Below are positions 100 to 17,769 of a stretch of DNA of 64,000 bases, piece after piece. Numbering within the stretch: position 1 is the stretch's first letter; each line of letters opens with the position of its first letter. The DNA lies in contig NZ_JAELXW010000001.1 in the NCBI RefSeq assembly GCF_016428645.1, positions 62,001 through 126,000 of the forward strand. The letters are read 5' to 3'. The notes below the pieces were generated by a model. The model worked only from the letters and a program-made list of their open reading frames with translations, made no database searches and was not told where the DNA came from. Position numbers and translations under genes: made by a program. The stretch is from Glycomyces salinus. GTDB taxonomy: Bacteria > Actinomycetota > Actinomycetes > Mycobacteriales > Micromonosporaceae.

Positions 100-1461
100 T
101 CAGTCCTCGCTGTTGGGCGAAGTGTTCTCGTTCTCGGTAGTCGGATTGCTGTCGGTGGGTTCCTCGTCCGTGGGTTCCTCGTCAGTCGGCTCCTCGTCCG
201 TGGGTTCCTCGTCCGTGGGCTCTTCGGTGGTCGGCTCCTCGGTCGTGGGTTCCTCGGTCGTGGGTTCCTCGGTCGTGGGCTCCTCGGTGGTCGGCTCCCA
301 GTTGGAGGTGTCGTCCTCCTCGGTGGTCTCCTCCTCGGTGGGAGACTCCGATTCGGTGGGGGCCTCAGAACTGGTCTCTTCCTCGGCCGGATTGATGTCT
401 CCGGAATCGTCATCCTGACCCAGGAGCCAGATCAGGGACACGATCAGGGCCACCGCCAGCGTCACCGCGCCGGTGATCAGCCACGGCACGGCGCGTCCCC
501 TGGACTCTCCGGCCTGTTCGAGCCGGTTGGTCGGCTGCGGGCTGGTGGTGTCTCCGACGGCGCCCATCGTCCGGGTGGCGCCGGCGCCCATCGCGCCCTC
601 CGGCGGGGTCGACGGCGTCACCGGGATGCCGCCGGTGACGACTCGGCCCTCGCGCGCCGAGCGCGCCATGTCGGCCGCCGAGGTGTATCGGGCGCCGGGG
701 TCCTTCTGGAGCGCTTGGAGGACCACTTGGGCGACTCCGGGCGGGATGTCACGATTCAGCGGCGGTGGTGCCTGGTGCATGTGGCCGCTCATGACGGCCA
801 CCGGCGTGTCCGAGACGAACGGCGGCTGGCCCATCAGCGCCTCGTATGCCACGACGCCCAGCGAGTACAGGTCGGTCGCGCCGGTGGCCTCCTGGCCGTT
901 GAGCTGCTCGGGAGAGGCGTAGGCGAGCGTGCCCATGACCGTGCCGGTCTCGGTCAGGCCCGAGGCGCCGCGGGCCGCGGCGATGCCGAAGTCGACGATC
1001 TTGACCGCGCCGGTCTCCTCGTCGACCAGGAGGTTCGCGGGCTTGATGTCTCTGTGGATGATGTCGGCCCGGTGGGCGACCTCGAGCGCGTCGGCGGCGG
1101 TGGAGACGATCCGCATGACCTCGGCGGGGGGCAGGGGGCCGCGCTCGCGCAGTATCTCGGCCAGGGATCGGCCCGTGACCAGCTCCATCACCAGGTAGGC
1201 GAGGGTGCCGTCTTCGCTTTCCTCTTCGCCGTAGTCGTAGAGGGCGACGATTCCGGGGGATTGGAGCGCCGCCACGGCGCGGGCTTCCAATTGGAAGCGG
1301 GCGCGGAATTTATCGTTGTCCGATAGTCCAGCATGGAGTATTTTAATTGCGACGCTGCGGCCGAGTCTGGTGTCGAAGCCTTTCCATACTTCGCCCATTC
1401 CACCGGCGGCCAGCCGTTCGTCCAACCGATAGCGGCCTGCCACTTCGGTCCCGCTCTGCAC
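100..1461 (-). CDS. Membrane Ser/Thr protein kinase (PknB-type, no PASTA)
   Basis: This is a Hanks-type Ser/Thr kinase of 453 residues. The kinase domain spans about residues 10-268, with a glycine loop around G20-G24, VAIK lysine K40, HRDIKPAN at 136-143 and DFG at 157-159. One membrane helix (about 325-347) follows a Pro/Thr linker. The external tail is highly acidic and made of TTEEP/TDEEP pentads, with no PASTA or other folded sensor. The start is GTG, with AAGGAG eight bases upstream. It lies 180 bp downstream of aspS on the same strand. Substrates cannot be inferred; the pentad tail may be a cell-wall spacer. Confidence in the kinase call is high. Confidence 0.95.
   Translation of the reverse strand: MQSGTEVAGRYRLDERLAAGGMGEVWKGFDTRLGRSVAIKILHAGLSDNDKFRARFQLEARAVAALQSPGIVALYDYGEEESEDGTLAYLVMELVTGRSLAEILRERGPLPPAEVMRIVSTAADALEVAHRADIIHRDIKPANLLVDEETGAVKIVDFGIAAARGASGLTETGTVMGTLAYASPEQLNGQEATGATDLYSLGVVAYEALMGQPPFVSDTPVAVMSGHMHQAPPPLNRDIPPGVAQVVLQALQKDPGARYTSAADMARSAREGRVVTGGIPVTPSTPPEGAMGAGATRTMGAVGDTTSPQPTNRLEQAGESRGRAVPWLITGAVTLAVALIVSLIWLLGQDDDSGDINPAEEETSSEAPTESESPTEEETTEEDDTSNWEPTTEEPTTEEPTTEEPTTEEPTTEEPTDEEPTDEEPTDEEPTDEEPTDSNPTTENENTSPNSED
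157..297 (-). repeat. 15-bp tandem repeat encoding TTEEP/TDEEP pentads
   Basis: About nine in-frame copies of a 15-bp unit encode five TTEEP followed by four TDEEP in the extracellular tail of the kinase. In-frame pentads like this are prone to slippage, so the length probably varies between strains. Confidence 0.85.
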
Positions 1462-3422: not shown

Positions 3423-3624
3423 GGGCTCAAAACTCCTCGAAGGATCTGGCGGATGAATGGTCGGCTGCTGGTCGATGGTTCGCGAGGGCCACCGGTCTCT
3501 GGTTGCATTGTCGCGAACGGCCTGCACCGCCAGCAATCGTATATCCGCCCGCCCGGGCCTCGGAATGCGCCGCCTGCCGCTGTGCGTGCCCGACCGCCTC
3601 GCGGTGTCGGGCATCACGCGGTCG

Positions 3625-4116
3625 CTAGCGCGGGATGGCGCTGAAGCCGAGGAGCCGGACGACCACGTCGAGGAAGCGGCGCGCGTCGGCGACGATCGTG
3701 TCGGCCTCCTCTGGGGTGACGATGTCGGGGATGCCGGCCTGGGCCAGGACGCGCTTACGGGCCGTGCGGGCGAAGTGCGAGGCCCATTCCTCCAGCTCGG
3801 GGGCGGCGCCTTTGAGCAGCTCCCAGGTACTGGAGGGGCGTCCGGGTCTGCGGCGGCTCATGGCCACGTCTCCGGCTCGCACCGCGAGCACCGCGGCGGC
3901 CACGCGCAGGGCCGCCATGTGGGCCTCGGCGTAGCGCTGGCCTGGACGGGACTGCTCGGCGGCGTCGTCGAGGTCGGCTCGCGCTCCGGCCAGCAGCTGG
4001 AGCGGGGAGCGGTTCGGGAGTTGGTCGGCCGGGATGCGCAGGCGGGTGTTCGAGACCGTCCCGGCCTGCACGAGGCGAGCGGTGGACCGGGTGGCTCCGG
4101 GTCGAGAAGCAGCCAT
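3625..4116 (-). CDS. SAV_6107-family HEPN domain protein, SOS-box controlled
   Basis: This 163-residue helical protein resembles the actinobacterial SAV_6107 HEPN family: an [11 protein letters not shown] helix, then [20 protein letters not shown], then a WELL...APELEEWA helix. HEPN domains are helical nucleic-acid or nucleotide-binding folds, and many are RNases; the RNase motif RxxxxH is not evident, so catalytic activity is doubtful. The start is ATG 4116 with GGAGG five bases upstream; an ATG 12 bases earlier overlaps that RBS. A perfect actinobacterial LexA box lies 23 bp upstream over the likely transcription start, so DNA-damage induction is expected. aspS follows on the same strand after about 200 bp with no visible gene. 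Confidence 0.8.
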
Positions 4117-4138
4117 GGGGGCCTCCATAAAACCGTGT

Positions 4139-4182
4139 TCGAACTTGCGTTCGAGGAATATGGAACCACATGGGTCCGACAA
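4139..4182 (-). promoter_or_regulatory. LexA (SOS) box and promoter of the HEPN gene
   Basis: TCGAAC-N4-GTTCGA at 4139-4154 matches the mycobacterial/actinobacterial LexA consensus in all 12 positions. On the minus strand a -35 TTGTCG (4177-4182) and a -10 TATTCC (4155-4160) are separated by 16 bp, so the box covers the predicted start of transcription, a typical repression position. Confidence 0.8.
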
Positions 4183-4263
4183 TTTGAACCCCCACGGCTA
4201 CCGGAAATCGCCGTCAGGCTACCGTCTGTCGTCAATCGGACAGCTTGTGCGTTGCGGTGCAAC

Positions 4264-4299
4264 GAAAAAGGGCCGCACCGGAAGATCCGGTGCGGCCCT
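4264..4299 (-). terminator. Intrinsic terminator of the metF-TPR operon
   Basis: A perfect 14-bp GC-rich stem (4269-4282 with 4286-4299), a 3-nt loop and a following T5 on the minus strand lie just after the TPR gene stop. Confidence 0.9.
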
Positions 4300-4310
4300 G
4301 GTCGCTCGGT

Positions 4311-4691
4311 CTATTCACCGAGCTGTTCGATCATGTTCAGGTGCCCCTTGGCCTCGTCGCGGCGGCCCAGGCGCTGCAGGGTGCGGCCCAGCAGCATCCG
4401 GGCGTAGAAGTCGGCCGGGTTCGAATCGACCATCTTCTCGGACAGGGCGAGGGCCCGGTTCAGCTGCGCGCTCTTGAAGTAGGCGCGCGCCGCGGTCAGC
4501 ATGACGTCCGGATGCTCCGGGTGGTCCCGCAGGAGCGGTTCGAGGAACTTGAGCGCCGCCAGCGGGTCGCGCTTGGCGAGCATCTCCTCGGCGTCCCGCA
4601 GACGCTGCGTCTCCTCGGGTACCTGGCGTTCCCGCGAGGCCGAATCGATGAAGGCGGCGATCTGGTCGTCGGTGATCTGGTCGTGGCGCAT
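4311..4691 (-). CDS. Small TPR protein
   Basis: This 126-residue protein has about three tetratricopeptide-like helix pairs (DPLAALKFLEPLLRDHPEHPD, then AARAYFKSAQLNRALALSEKMV, then ARMLLGRTLQRLGRRDEAKGHL). It has no signal peptide or membrane segment, so it is probably a cytosolic scaffold. It begins 35 bp after the upstream membrane-protein gene, which places it last in the metF operon, followed by a strong terminator. No Shine-Dalgarno is visible before ATG 4691. The partner is unknown. Confidence 0.75.
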   Translation of the reverse strand: MRHDQITDDQIAAFIDSASRERQVPEETQRLRDAEEMLAKRDPLAALKFLEPLLRDHPEHPDVMLTAARAYFKSAQLNRALALSEKMVDSNPADFYARMLLGRTLQRLGRRDEAKGHLNMIEQLGE

Positions 4692-5360: not shown

Positions 5361-6293
5361 TCAGGCGTGCGCCCTAGTCCCTCTCTTGCCGCCGTTGAGG
5401 TTCTGCCAGACGCGACGGGTGGAGCGGGAGTGGTTCAAGGTGGTGAAGTGAAGACCGGGCGCCCCTTCGTCGAGCAGCCGCCGTCCCAGATCGGTCGCGA
5501 CCTCGACGCCGATGTCCCGGATGGCGTCCCGGTCGTCCTCGACCGCGCGGAGCCGCTCGGCGAGATCCTCGGGGAAGACCATGCCGGTCAGCACCGCGAA
5601 CCGCTCGATCTGCTTGATGTTGGTCACCGGCATGATGCCGGGGACGATCGGGACATCGCATCCGGCGGCGGCGACCGCGTCGCGCAGCCGCAGGTAGTCC
5701 TCGGCGTCGAAGAAGATCTGGGTGATCGCGAAGTCGGCCCCGGCCCGGCACTTCTCCACGAAGTGGCGCACGCCGGTCTCCCAGTCGACGTCCCGGGGGT
5801 GGCCTTCGGGGAAGGCCGCGACACCGACGCTGAAGTCGCCGGAGGTCTTGATGAGCTCCACCAGCTCGCGGGCGTGCTCGATGCCGCCGGGGCACTTGAC
5901 CCATTCGCCCTGGGGGTCGCCGGGCGGGTCGCCGCGCAGCGCCAGGATGTTCCGGGCCCCGACGTTGGCGAAATGCCCGATGAGGTTGCGCAGCTCGCTC
6001 ACCGTGTGGTCGACGGCCGTCAGGTGCGCCATGGTCAGCAGGGTGGTCTCGGAGATGACCCTGTCGGTCGTCTCGATGGTCTTGTCCCTGGTCTTGCCGC
6101 CCTGGCCGTAGGTGACCGACACGTAGTCGGGGCCGAGCTGCTCGAGGTTGCGGAGCGTCCGCCACAGGGTCGCCTCGTCCTTCTCCGAACGAGGCGGGAA
6201 CATCTCGAAGGAGAACCTCGGGGTACCGGAACGGAGCAGATCGCCGATCTTGGCGGTCTGCTGCGGCATCACTGAGGCGACTCCAAGGGTCAT
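5361..6293 (-). CDS. metF: Methylenetetrahydrofolate reductase
   Basis: This flavoprotein reduces 5,10-methylene-THF to 5-methyl-THF for methionine synthesis. The 310-residue TIM barrel shows RFSFEMFPPRSEKDE, VSVTYGQGG, TAVDHTVSELRN, LRGDPPGD, GVAAFPEGHP, FAITQIFFDAEDY and PIVPGIMPV, all typical of MetF. The start is set at ATG 6293 (MTLGVAS), like streptomycete MetF. There is no SD, but TACCGT lies six bases before the ATG on the minus strand, fitting a leaderless mRNA. The open frame upstream of it has no homology. It diverges from the polyprenyl synthetase gene and heads an operon with a membrane protein and a TPR protein. Confidence 0.93.
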   Translation of the reverse strand: MTLGVASVMPQQTAKIGDLLRSGTPRFSFEMFPPRSEKDEATLWRTLRNLEQLGPDYVSVTYGQGGKTRDKTIETTDRVISETTLLTMAHLTAVDHTVSELRNLIGHFANVGARNILALRGDPPGDPQGEWVKCPGGIEHARELVELIKTSGDFSVGVAAFPEGHPRDVDWETGVRHFVEKCRAGADFAITQIFFDAEDYLRLRDAVAAAGCDVPIVPGIMPVTNIKQIERFAVLTGMVFPEDLAERLRAVEDDRDAIRDIGVEVATDLGRRLLDEGAPGLHFTTLNHSRSTRRVWQNLNGGKRGTRAHA

Positions 6294-6353: not shown

Positions 6354-6390
6354 TTGGGACGGACCCTTGTACGCATAAGGTCGAACCGTG
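6354..6390 (+). promoter_or_regulatory. Leaderless promoter of the polyprenyl synthetase gene
   Basis: TTGGGA (6354-6359), a 16-bp spacer and TAAGGT (6376-6381) are followed six bases later by the GTG start, so transcription should begin at the start codon. No Shine-Dalgarno is present. Confidence 0.5.
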
Positions 6391-7440
6391 GAGCTCAAAG
6401 ACCGCATCGAATCCGCCCTTTCCGCCTTCCTGGAGCGCCGGGCCGCCGTCATCGGCGGGATCGACGGGCGACTCGAGGTCTACGCCGAGGCGGCCCGGTC
6501 GTTCGTGCTCGGCGGCGGCAAGCGGATCCGCCCCACCTTCGCCTACTGGGGCGCGCGCGGCGCCGGCCTGGGCGACTCGCCGGAGCTGGTGGCCTGCGTC
6601 TCGTCCCTGGAGCTGCTCCAGGCTTCGGCGCTGATGCACGACGATCTGATCGACGGCTCCGACACCCGCCGCGGCGCCCCCTCGATCCACCGCCGCTTCG
6701 CCGCCCTCCACGCCGACGAGGGCTGGTCGGGCCGGGCCGACGAGTTCGGGCGGGCCGCGGCGATCCTGCTCGGCGACATGTGCCTGGCCTGGTCGGACGA
6801 GCTGCTGTGCTCGGCCGGAATGGCGCCGGAGGCCGTGGCGCGGGCCCGGTCGGACTTCGACCTGATGCGCACCGAGGTCAGCGCCGGGCAGTACCTGGAC
6901 GTCCTCTCGGAGGTCCGCCGCGACGTCTCGGAGGACACCGCGCTCAAGGTGGCCCGCTACAAGTCGGCCAAGTACACCATCGAGCGCCCGCTGCTGCTGG
7001 GCGCGTCGCTGGCCGGGGCCGGACCGCGGATCCGGGAGCACTACTCGGCGATCGGTCTCCCGCTCGGCGAGGCGTTCCAACTGCGCGACGACGTGCTCGG
7101 CGTCTTCGGCGACCCCGCCCAGACCGGCAAGCCCGCCGGGGACGACCTGCGCGAGGGCAAGCACACCTTCCTGGTCGCGCGGGCCTCGGCGGCGGCCGAT
7201 CCCGCCCAGAGCGCCGCGCTCGAGGCGGGCCTGGGCGACCCGGAGCTGGGCGAGGAGGGCGTGGCGCGGCTGCGGGCGATCCTGATGGACACCGGCGCGC
7301 TGGCCGACACCGAGCAGCGCATTCAGGCCCTGGCCGACCGGGCCGAGGAGGCCCTGGAGGCATCACGGGACTCCGTCGACGGGGCCGCGCTCGAAGTCTT
7401 CGCCGGACTCCTGGTCAAGGCCGTCAAGCGCGATTTCTGA
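6388..7440 (+). CDS. Polyprenyl (geranylgeranyl-type) diphosphate synthase
   Basis: This trans-prenyltransferase condenses isopentenyl diphosphate with allylic diphosphates. At 350 residues it has the family length. It shows GGGKRIRP at 42-49, the first Asp-rich motif DDLID at 85-89, and the second motif DDVLGVFGD at 234-242. The first motif is the simple DDxxD form. Product chain length cannot be set by eye; GGPP for carotenoid, menaquinone or carrier lipid synthesis is likely. The start is GTG 6388, with a leaderless promoter. The gene diverges from metF, an arrangement also found in mycobacteria and streptomycetes as I recall. Confidence 0.9.
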   Translation: MELKDRIESALSAFLERRAAVIGGIDGRLEVYAEAARSFVLGGGKRIRPTFAYWGARGAGLGDSPELVACVSSLELLQASALMHDDLIDGSDTRRGAPSIHRRFAALHADEGWSGRADEFGRAAAILLGDMCLAWSDELLCSAGMAPEAVARARSDFDLMRTEVSAGQYLDVLSEVRRDVSEDTALKVARYKSAKYTIERPLLLGASLAGAGPRIREHYSAIGLPLGEAFQLRDDVLGVFGDPAQTGKPAGDDLREGKHTFLVARASAAADPAQSAALEAGLGDPELGEEGVARLRAILMDTGALADTEQRIQALADRAEEALEASRDSVDGAALEVFAGLLVKAVKRDF

Positions 7441-15104: not shown

Positions 15105-15641
15105 TCATTCGAAGTGGGCGTCCTCGTCGAGCAGTTCGGCCGCCTCGTTCTCGGCTTCGGCCAGGACCTGCTTGACCACCGGGATCGCCACTCCGGCCCC
15201 GTAGCCCTTGCGGGCGAGCATGCCGACCAGCTTCCGCAGCACCGCCTGCGGGTCCTGGCCGGCCAGGCCGCGGTAGCGTCGGCGGGCCAGGTCCAGGGCC
15301 GCCTCGCGCTCGTCGTCGTCGCTGACCCGCTCGACGGCGGCCTCGACGTGCTCGGGGTCGACGCCCTTGCGGCGCAGTTCCCCGGCCAGAGCGCGCTTCG
15401 ACAGGCCGCGGACCCGGTGGCGGGAGTCGACCCACGCGCGGGCGAACACCGCGTCGTCGATCATGCCGACCTCGGAGTAGCGCTCCAGGATGCCGTCCAC
15501 GACCTCCTCGGCGAAGCCCTTGCGGCGCATGGCCTCGCCCAGTTCGGTGCGGGTCCTCGGCCGGCCCGACAGCAGCCGGAGGCAGTACTGCCGGGCGGCC
15601 TCTGGGTCGTCCGGATCAGAAGTCGACCGGGGCTTCTTCAC
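15105..15641 (-). CDS. recX: Regulatory protein RecX
   Basis: RecX binds RecA filaments and dampens recombinase activity. The 178-residue protein has the repeated three-helix RecX units, with [23 protein letters not shown], then [28 protein letters not shown], then a C-terminal unit ending in the acidic [12 protein letters not shown] 15641 is chosen because AAGAGG lies six bases upstream; a GTG at 15665 would add eight residues but has no RBS. Either start overlaps the 3' end of recA, so the two are co-transcribed and translationally coupled. Confidence 0.93.
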
Positions 15642-17769
15642 TCTTGGCCTCTTCGACGGGCTCACCGCCGGAGTCGACGCCGAGCTTCTCCAGGATCTTC
15701 TTCTCGATCTCGAGGGCCAGGTCCGGGTTCTCCTTGAGGTTGGTCCGGGCCTTCTCCTTGCCCTGGCCGAGCTGGTCGCCCTCGTAGGTGTACCAGGCGC
15801 CGGACTTCTTGACGATGCCGTGCTCGACGCCCATGTCGATGAGCGAGCCCTCCTTGGAGATGCCGACCCCGTAGAGGATGTCGAACTCGGCCTGCCGGAA
15901 CGGCGAGGAGACCTTGTTCTTGACGACCTTCACGCGGGTCCGGTTCCCGACGGCCTCACCGCCGTCCTTGAGAGTCTCGATCCGACGGATGTCCAACCGC
16001 ACTGAGGCATAGAACTTGAGCGCCTTACCGCCCGAAGTGGTCTCGGGGCTGTTGTGGACCATGACGCCGTCGGCCAGGTAGTTGTGCGTACCTTCGATCT
16101 CAAGGTCGTAGCGGTTCATCTTCTGGTAGTCCCGCTTCGAGTCGATCGAAAGCACTTGGGCCGGGACCAGACTGAGCGTCGGCTCGGCAAGCTCCGGCTT
16201 CACCTTGCACATGCCACGGAATCGCGGGAGCAGCTTGTACTCCATCGATTCGGGGATGTAGGGCGCGACCAGCTCTTGGAACTTTGTGGTGGCGGCCGTG
16301 GTGAATCGGATTGTGCTCACCTGCCGCCGCCCCTTCTTGGTCAGCTTGACATCCAACCCGTGCGTATCACGCAGGTAGTCAGTCAGGCGTTCTCGCGAGC
16401 CCGGGCTCATCGCCTCCACACAGATCTCGATCCGCCCAGTACCGCCTTGGGTGCTTTCCCACCGCCCTTTCGAGCGGAGGGTGAAACTACCGTCGTCCAT
16501 GTACCAGACAGCGAGCGCGAGAGGTGTGAGGGCCTTGAGGTACTCCCATGACAGGCACTTCTTGCCGTCTCCGAAATACACTGCCTGCCGCAGTTCACCC
16601 AGCTCAGCGAGCGGAGTGAAGTCAGCGAACACAGCACCCTTCTCGTTTTCACTCCGAGAGTGGTTGATGTTTTGGAGCAGCGACACCTTCCAGTCGAGGT
16701 AGTTGGCCTGCTTCGCACCGTGCCCCATCCGTAGACGAGCGCTAGGGGCGTCCGACCGAATCGGCCCACTCAGCGATCCGTCGCCCATGAGCGTTCCGAG
16801 GACGACCTGCCGCTGCTGCTCGCTGAGCAGGTGCTCCTCCGCCAGCATCACGCGGTCACCGACGCAGATCTCCTGCGCTTCGCGCCAGCCGCCCGGAGTT
16901 CGGATGAGGTGGTTGGGAGTCATCGCCAAACTGGCTTTGCTGTTGCCAGTACCGGCGCCTGCCCGTTCGACCCTGAAGTACAGGAACTCCTCGGCCTTGC
17001 CGTTGTTGAACCAGTCCACCACCTTCCGGGGGACGATCTTCCCGGACTCGACGTCGTAGGAGAGAACCTCGACGTCCATCTTCTGGTTCACGATCTTGCC
17101 GATCGGCATCTTGGTGCCGTCCGCCAGCATGACATTGGTGTACCAGGAGGCACAGCCGAACATGACTCCGACCTTCTCGCGGAGCTGGTTGATGAAGATC
17201 GCGGTGGTGCCGGTGTTGTTCAGGCCGCCGGCGATCTTGCGGAGGGCCTGGCTCATCAGACGGGCCTGGAGGCCCACGTGGGAGTCGCCCATCTCGCCCT
17301 CGATCTCGGCGCGCGGCACCAGGGCCGCCACCGAGTCGATGACGATGAGGTCGACCGCGCCGGAGCGGATCAGCATGTCAGCGATCTCCAGGGCCTGCTC
17401 GCCGGTGTCCGGCTGGCTGACCAGGAGCTCGTCGACGTTGACGCCGATCGCCTCGGCGTAGACCGGGTCCAGCGCGTGCTCGGCGTCGATCATCGCGGCC
17501 ACGCCGCCTTCGGCTTGCACGTTCGCCATGGCGTGCAACGCAAGCGACGTTTTTCCGCTGCTCTCCGGTCCGTATATCTCCACCACGCGGCCCCGGGGGA
17601 GCCCCCCGACGCCGAGCGCGACGTCGAGCGCGATCGAGCCGGTGGGAATGGTCTTGATGTTCTGTTTGGGCTTCTCCCCCAGCCGCATGACCGAGCCCTT
17701 GCCGAACTGCTTGTCGATCTGGGCCAGCGCGAGATCGAGCGCCTTGCCCTTGTCCTGAGCGGAGTTCAT
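15616..17769 (-). CDS. recA: Recombinase RecA precursor with intein
   Basis: The 717-residue precursor comprises RecA (349 residues after splicing) and a 368-residue intein. The extein has Walker A GPESSGKT (67-74), [10 protein letters not shown] (141-150) and [13 protein letters not shown] (193-205), then continues [23 protein letters not shown]. The start is ATG 17769, with GGGGAGG seven bases upstream; an in-frame ATG at 17805 lies at the predicted transcription start and lacks an RBS. RecA drives homologous recombination and LexA autocleavage. recX overlaps its end. The frame is intact across both splice junctions, so a functional protein is expected. Confidence 0.97.
16051..17154 (-). 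other. RecA intein with LAGLIDADG homing endonuclease
   Basis: The intein spans 368 residues, from Cys1 (codon 17152-17154) directly after GVMFG to the final His-Asn (codon 16051-16053), followed by Ser as the +1 extein nucleophile. Block A/B features include [15 protein letters not shown] and the [12 protein letters not shown] motif. Two dodecapeptide motifs ([12 protein letters not shown] and [13 protein letters not shown]) belong to a LAGLIDADG endonuclease. The insertion point and sequence resemble the Mycobacterium leprae RecA intein, not the M. tuberculosis one, which sits further downstream. All splicing residues look present, so both splicing and homing may be active. Confidence 0.95.

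Follow-up and report, generated by a model that had tools for sequence, protein, structure and literature searches.

What would a HEPN protein contribute to the SOS response? The question is raised by a 64,000-nucleotide stretch of the Glycomyces salinus genome (contig NZ_JAELXW010000001.1, positions 62,001 to 126,000; hereafter the window), in which a gene of the SAV_6107 family of HEPN proteins (PF18726; 163 amino acids; 3625–4116, minus strand, ATG start at 4116; assigned by profile score and fold) lies behind the palindrome TCGAACTTGCGTTCGA (4139–4154; identified by motif scan and conservation). The palindrome matches the actinobacterial LexA (SOS) box TCGAAC-N4-GTTCGA at 12 of 12 positions and lies 22 nt upstream of the ATG. 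Across most of the families sampled, a HEPN-fold SAV_6107 protein and an ideal actinobacterial LexA box are conserved together.

Both elements stand alone in the genome. The profile PF18726 (HEPN_SAV_6107) scores 101.5 bits on the window gene, with a gathering cut-off of 27.2, which places it in the family, and no other gene in the genome matches above the cut-off. Exact SOS-box matches in the 5.37-Mb genome number one, the HEPN box, and a reversed-pattern control gave none; in the same genome, the nearest site upstream of lexA, TCGCACGAATGTTTGA, has two mismatches and that of recA, TCGAACAATCCGTTGC, has four, so that both are poorer than the HEPN box. The original prediction had described a perfect box before a SAV_6107-type HEPN gene, with -35, -10 and ribosome-binding site in place. 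The box and the family assignment are confirmed by these results, as is the ribosome-binding-site-like GGAGG (4122–4126, minus strand), five bases before the ATG and kept in Glycomyces. The -35 and -10 elements were not recovered, since a sigma-70-type consensus scan of window positions 3500–4400 gave no promoter-like site, and the box may cover the transcription start. A terminator-like hairpin with a T run (4269–4299, minus strand; a pattern match only, with one such pattern observed and 0.4 expected in shuffles) separates the upstream TPR protein gene from the box, which suggests that HEPN starts its own transcript. The two one-mismatch SOS-box sites elsewhere in the window (22821 and 25390) both lie inside long open frames and for this reason were not counted as regulatory, and a cluster of SOS boxes in the window was rejected.

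To follow the box through relatives, named genomes were searched, which returned at least 14 related loci, all of them from Glycomyces; among the matches listed, each of the 14 has a 12/12 box shortly before the HEPN start. The box, the GGAGG and the ATG region are kept across these loci, and the central bases of the box on the gene strand are GCAA in 13 of the 14, as here, and GCAG in the remaining one (L008). Of the 393 genomes sampled from the wider class, 238 have PF18726, as do 90 of the 123 genera. One genome shows a second, weak PF18726 match (G005:C110:20903-21145), which at 22.1 bits falls below the cut-off. A set of 70 loci (L070–L139) was drawn from PF18726 matches, including weaker ones, and up to 1016 nt upstream of the HEPN domain was searched: the box is exact in 51, has at most one mismatch in 64 and at most two in 68. 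The remaining sequence of these loci, 480,922 bases, has no exact site, 4 sites within one mismatch and 51 within two. This count omits 30 loci (L040–L069), many of which are Streptomyces-like and several of which are the same places as loci in L070–L109. Counted by family, the box is exact in 31 of 35 and has at most one mismatch in 33 of 35; the f41 locus showed no SOS box in the 1016 nt searched. An SOS box thus precedes the HEPN gene and is conserved in its relatives, as expected of a member of the LexA regulon, and the check that had been suggested for the original prediction, conservation of the box before homologues, came out in its favour. The motif agrees with that obtained by chromatin immunoprecipitation sequencing (ChIP-seq) of LexA in S. 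venezuelae, tCGAAC-N4-GNNCGa (PMC9380542), a paper whose main text does not contain the word HEPN.

In a genus that is presumably Corynebacterium-like (that of G347), the HEPN gene occurs in 149 of 151 genomes. The region from -350 to -120 in 43 distinct loci of this genus holds a box with at most one mismatch in 13 and with at most two in 32, and the 231,150 other bases taken as background hold 3 and 11 such sites, respectively. C. glutamicum itself is one control genome with a PF18726 match over the cut-off. Its gene cg2381, annotated as a 'conserved hypothetical protein', is named among 48 C. glutamicum LexA-regulon genes (PMC5055667, citing Jochmann 2009), and the same paper gives it an M value of 3.86 with ciprofloxacin, equal to that of recA; mraZ (cg2378) has an M value of -1.13 in the same table. 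In 20 Corynebacterium-like loci, HEPN has a GGPP-synthase-like gene upstream in all 20 and a metF-like gene in 13, and an MraZ-like start (by pattern match) follows within 4 kb in 17. Given these neighbours and the shared position before mraZ, cg2381 is probably the orthologue of the SAV_6107-type HEPN gene, although the table of PMC5055667 does not call it HEPN and the two are equated by synteny, not by sequence. Control by DNA damage, as originally predicted, is strongly supported by the conservation of the box together with the published induction of cg2381, and it is very likely, judging from these comparisons, that LexA represses the window HEPN gene and that DNA damage induces it.

A possible partner is suggested by the gene order around HEPN in other lineages. 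Forty loci with long flanks were hand-picked among the PF18726 places with better scores, in most cases a single locus per genus, so that fractions of the 40 are not those of a random sample; neighbours were called by tblastn (L071 has only 149 nt after HEPN). In many families, the order after the box is a small protein, HEPN and a very large protein. The small protein belongs to DUF6504 (PF20114), as shown for two. The one large protein scanned for domains is a polymerase of the C family, in which PHP, pol III alpha, finger and HHH domains were recognised; three tested reached neither the DnaE1 nor the DnaE2 cut-off of NCBIfam, and the large protein is called DnaE2-like here. The DnaE2-like gene lies directly downstream of HEPN in 21 of the 40 loci, DUF6504 directly upstream in 22, and both in 20; two other loci have DUF6504 only, one has the polymerase only, and two have ImuA'. 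In 30 further loci, the polymerase lies downstream of HEPN in 7 and DUF6504 adjoins it in 7. In the loci with the polymerase downstream, 21 in all, DnaE begins -4 to +60 nt from the HEPN stop when the in-frame start nearest to that stop is taken, a choice that favours short gaps. PDxDxD was found in all 21 DnaE frames, the match in L095 (PDDDPD) being doubtful. Among the matches listed, DUF6504 lies directly upstream of HEPN on the same strand in 54 of the 72 genomes with both places, with a median gap of 131 nt between the two domain matches.

A second arrangement is found in L070, which belongs to the same family as the genome under study (f1), and in L104 of family f18. There HEPN is followed by ImuA' (NF058630, 178.5 and 184.3 bits, respectively; start taken by eye), an ImuB-like Y-family protein and DnaE2, which scores 1221.9 bits in L070, where the locus includes only a part of it, and was called by tblastn in L104. 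The box upstream of HEPN has one mismatch in L070 and is exact in L104. LexA-controlled clusters that join HEPN to DnaE2 are thus found in other lineages, in the DnaE2-like form (21 of 40) and as the ImuA' cassette (2 of 40). DinB stands directly after HEPN in L073 and L136, and further down in several loci.

DUF6504 is, we assume, the C-terminal domain of ImuB (ImuB-C), and its size, context and partner fit this assignment. Among the matches listed, the only control genome with DUF6504 was Caulobacter, which we take to have imuAB-dnaE2. Because in many lineages HEPN lies between DUF6504 and the DnaE2-like gene behind a LexA box, and in two loci stands before ImuA'-ImuB-DnaE2, we hypothesize, with a probability of roughly 0.6, that it is a LexA-controlled, non-catalytic adaptor that works with the SOS error-prone polymerases (of the DnaE2 type, and perhaps DinB). 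LexA would repress HEPN until DNA damage releases the repression, which is the strongly supported step; HEPN would then be made together with, or in parallel to, the error-prone polymerases, as the gene order indicates in many lineages and as we suppose for Glycomyces. In this role of a non-catalytic adaptor, the protein would target DnaE2, ImuB-C or DinB, possibly by contacting the PHP domain of DnaE2, ImuB-C, or a nucleotide or nucleic-acid end, and may help to assemble, recruit or restrain the mutasome. In Glycomyces, where HEPN lies apart from the canonical DnaE2, it would act in trans. An accessory of repair polymerases had been among the roles originally suggested; gene order in many lineages speaks for it, but that in Glycomyces itself does not. 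A bolder form, which we hold tentatively and at somewhat less than an even chance, is that two different actinobacterial mutasomes, ImuA'-ImuB-DnaE2 and ImuB-C-DnaE2B, and perhaps DinB, share SAV_6107 HEPN as a subunit or loader that has gone unrecognised; it would be a non-nuclease HEPN recruited into SOS mutagenesis.

Several observations weigh against a close tie between HEPN and the polymerases. In the genome under study, HEPN is on contig C1 but the canonical DnaE2, which scores 1380 bits, is on C28, so the two share no cluster, and a search of this genome found no DUF6504. All 14 Glycomyces loci instead show TPR, a DUF-like gene, metF and GGPP synthase on one flank of HEPN and aspS on the other. 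In the window, these neighbours include the TPR gene (4311–4691, minus strand), included for context only, and two provisionally named genes of the conserved locus, a metF-like gene (5361–6293, minus strand) and a GGPP-synthase-like gene (6388–7440, plus strand). Neither DUF6504, a DnaE2-like gene nor ImuA' adjoins HEPN in 15 of the 40 long-flank loci, and the 18 genomes in which HEPN lies away from DUF6504 all belong to family f17, among the matches listed. DUF6504 directly precedes a DnaE-like gene with no HEPN between them in G014 (f17), G021 and G038 (f24), and the latter two have no HEPN match, as judged by eye from the listings. Of 30 genomes with HEPN, 28 have two or more DnaE-family matches and 2 have a single one; of 35 genomes without HEPN, 32 have two or more. 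The presence of HEPN cannot be predicted from a second DnaE, and a strict HEPN–DnaE2 tie is not supported. The presumably Mycobacterium-like genus g3 is without HEPN in 20 of 20 rows, among the matches listed, and the three g3 genomes checked all carry DnaE2. In family f19, presumably Streptomyces-like, even the loose box YCGAACN4GNNCGA is missing from 10 of the 20 rows, which represent 19 distinct loci (L044 and L083 being the same). A general role as stand-in for ImuA' was rejected, with HEPN sitting beside ImuA' in L070 and L104. Given the DUF6504–DnaE pairs without HEPN, the similar DnaE counts and the 15 loci without such neighbours, HEPN is more likely to be an optional modulator than a core subunit.

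The variation in neighbours also leaves room for HEPN to ride along, with its LexA promoter a matter of position and its role outside mutagenesis, in nucleotide handling or with a nearby methyltransferase such as the class I enzyme that follows in L089. Although the neighbour set varies and those 15 loci lack an adjoining polymerase module, we consider this improbable. The box persists in front of HEPN in the absence of both DUF6504 and DnaE2-like genes (Glycomyces and families f5, f13, f15, f16 and f20), so LexA control follows HEPN itself, and two different DnaE2 cassettes contain HEPN.

The term non-catalytic in the proposed adaptor role depends on the fold and on the active-site residues. 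A structure model built from a 15-sequence Glycomyces alignment has a mean predicted local distance difference test score (pLDDT) of 71.1, with the domain helices mostly at 80–95, and contains helices at residues 38–53, 58–81, 94–100, 106–117, 119–126 and 135–156. Four helices were matched to those of HEPN by order, not by superposition (38–53, 58–81, 106–126 and 135–156), leaving an insert at about 82–105. VIA-align gave its best match to 2hsb (Z 15.0, root-mean-square deviation 2.5, 118 aligned), followed by sacsin HEPN and other HEPN entries; fold families missing from these matches were not taken as excluded. Foldseek E-values were weak (best 0.056), and a sequence search of solved structures returned 2hsb (E 0.7) and a designed protein (E 0.9). 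As modelled, the window protein has the HEPN fold. A defence role was rejected: PADLOC gave only weak matches to the candidate defence protein PDC-M05B for the window HEPN (P0001, E 5e-4), L089:4965-5417 (3e-3) and L070:5941-6399 (1e-4), which perhaps reflect only the shared HEPN fold, and a PHROGs match of unknown function was also weak (E 0.003). A viral origin was rejected, as 42 stretches matched the peptide pattern and none was confirmed.

The fold also bears on the RNase-type damage response that the original prediction had offered, in which an SOS-induced HEPN RNase or toxin would cut RNA and slow growth after DNA damage. Many HEPN proteins are RNases, and in HEPN the motif Rx4-6H sits at the end of helix 3 (PMC3710099). 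In an alignment of 80 rows (79 distinct), the arginine of this motif has a counterpart in R122 (kept in 93%), but the position of the histidine is occupied by G128 (93%), so that the motif of a catalytic HEPN RNase is absent. The sole column with more than 30% histidine is 66 (H 54, Y 19, Q 5 and R 1 of 79); it lies in helix 2, and P0001 also has R61-x4-H66. A separate alignment of 28 sequences (A2) has M1, A52, R61, L70, R71, A73, W98, P106 and F148 invariant. The 2013 HEPN survey allows families without the canonical motif to cut RNA by other residues, and describes for AF0298-like proteins, which include the best fold match found here (2hsb), an alternative histidine in the insert between helices 2 and 3 (PMC3710099); the 79 distinct rows show no conserved histidine in that insert. 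Table 1 of the survey gives SAV_6107 a 'No' for 'Conservation of Rx4-6H' and a dash for operons. With the motif histidine missing, alignment and fold together led us to reject the catalytic reading, and since no viral relative was confirmed and synteny is conserved, an RNase or toxin role in any form appears unlikely. The same points set SAV_6107 HEPN apart from HepT-type HEPN-MNT toxins and the HEPN partners of minimal nucleotidyltransferases (MNT), with which it shares the fold: the active-site histidine is missing, and no operon is noted for it in that table, although a nucleotidyltransferase partner was not searched for systematically.

The position before mraZ in Corynebacterium-like loci raises a further, similarly unlikely explanation, that HEPN is an SOS-linked cell-division regulator near the dcw cluster, which may delay division as DivS is said to. 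This would agree with the MraZ-like start downstream in 17 of those 20 loci and with the fall of mraZ as cg2381 rises (M -1.13 and 3.86; PMC5055667), but polymerase neighbours recur in many families, the Glycomyces neighbours are TPR, metF, GGPP synthase and aspS, and the place near mraZ may be only old synteny. That the palindrome belongs to another regulator, or arose by chance, is very improbable: lexA and recA of this genome do have poorer matches, but the motif is that of S. venezuelae LexA (PMC9380542), 64 of 70 loci have it with at most one mismatch as compared with 4 sites in 481 kb, and cg2381 is a named LexA-regulon gene (PMC5055667).

Among described systems, the adaptor proposed here comes closest to two DnaE2 modules. 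The ImuA'-ImuB-DnaE2 mutasome is LexA-controlled in the literature, and in L070 and L104 HEPN stands before its three genes with the box upstream; it differs in that HEPN is not part of the complex as described in PMC12926913, that the RecA-like ImuA' is unrelated to HEPN, and that the Mycobacterium-like genus lacks HEPN (20 of 20, among the matches listed). In Actinobacteria, DnaE2B is linked to standalone ImuB-C, which an active PolY and RecA may or may not accompany, and the C-terminal barrel of ImuB was modelled on the PHP domain of DnaE2 (PMC12926913). The neighbours of HEPN, a PHP-containing C-family polymerase, the small DUF6504 and, further down, DinB, resemble this second module, although the DnaE2B label is our own reading. 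The word HEPN is absent from the main texts of both module surveys (PMC12926913 and PMC6511836), and a literature search for SAV_6107, DUF6504 and HEPN with LexA, its scope excluding supplements and subscription papers, returned no report of a HEPN–SOS or HEPN–DnaE2 link. The link with DnaE2 cassettes is the new part.

Some other features were noted. An intein that contains a LAGLIDADG endonuclease domain splits the recA gene of the window (15616–17769, minus strand; RecA 9–207, Intein_splicing 213–573, LAGLIDADG_2 320–497 and RecA_C 641–697). The gene at 100–1461 (minus strand) encodes a protein that is kinase-like by eye, with a long C-terminal repeat of the TEEPTTEEP/TDEEP type. In L089, the class I methyltransferase (235–966, minus strand) lies after the DnaE2-like gene, with CmoM as the closest NCBIfam, below its cut-off, and in L083 a frame judged by eye to be methyltransferase-like follows HEPN.

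SOS mutagenesis by DnaE2 yields mutations, including those for drug resistance, and the components of its machines are still being catalogued. HEPN, LexA-boxed and beside two kinds of DnaE2 cassette, is a directly testable candidate for a missing part. If the proposal is true, SAV_6107 would be a case of a HEPN protein used outside RNA cutting.
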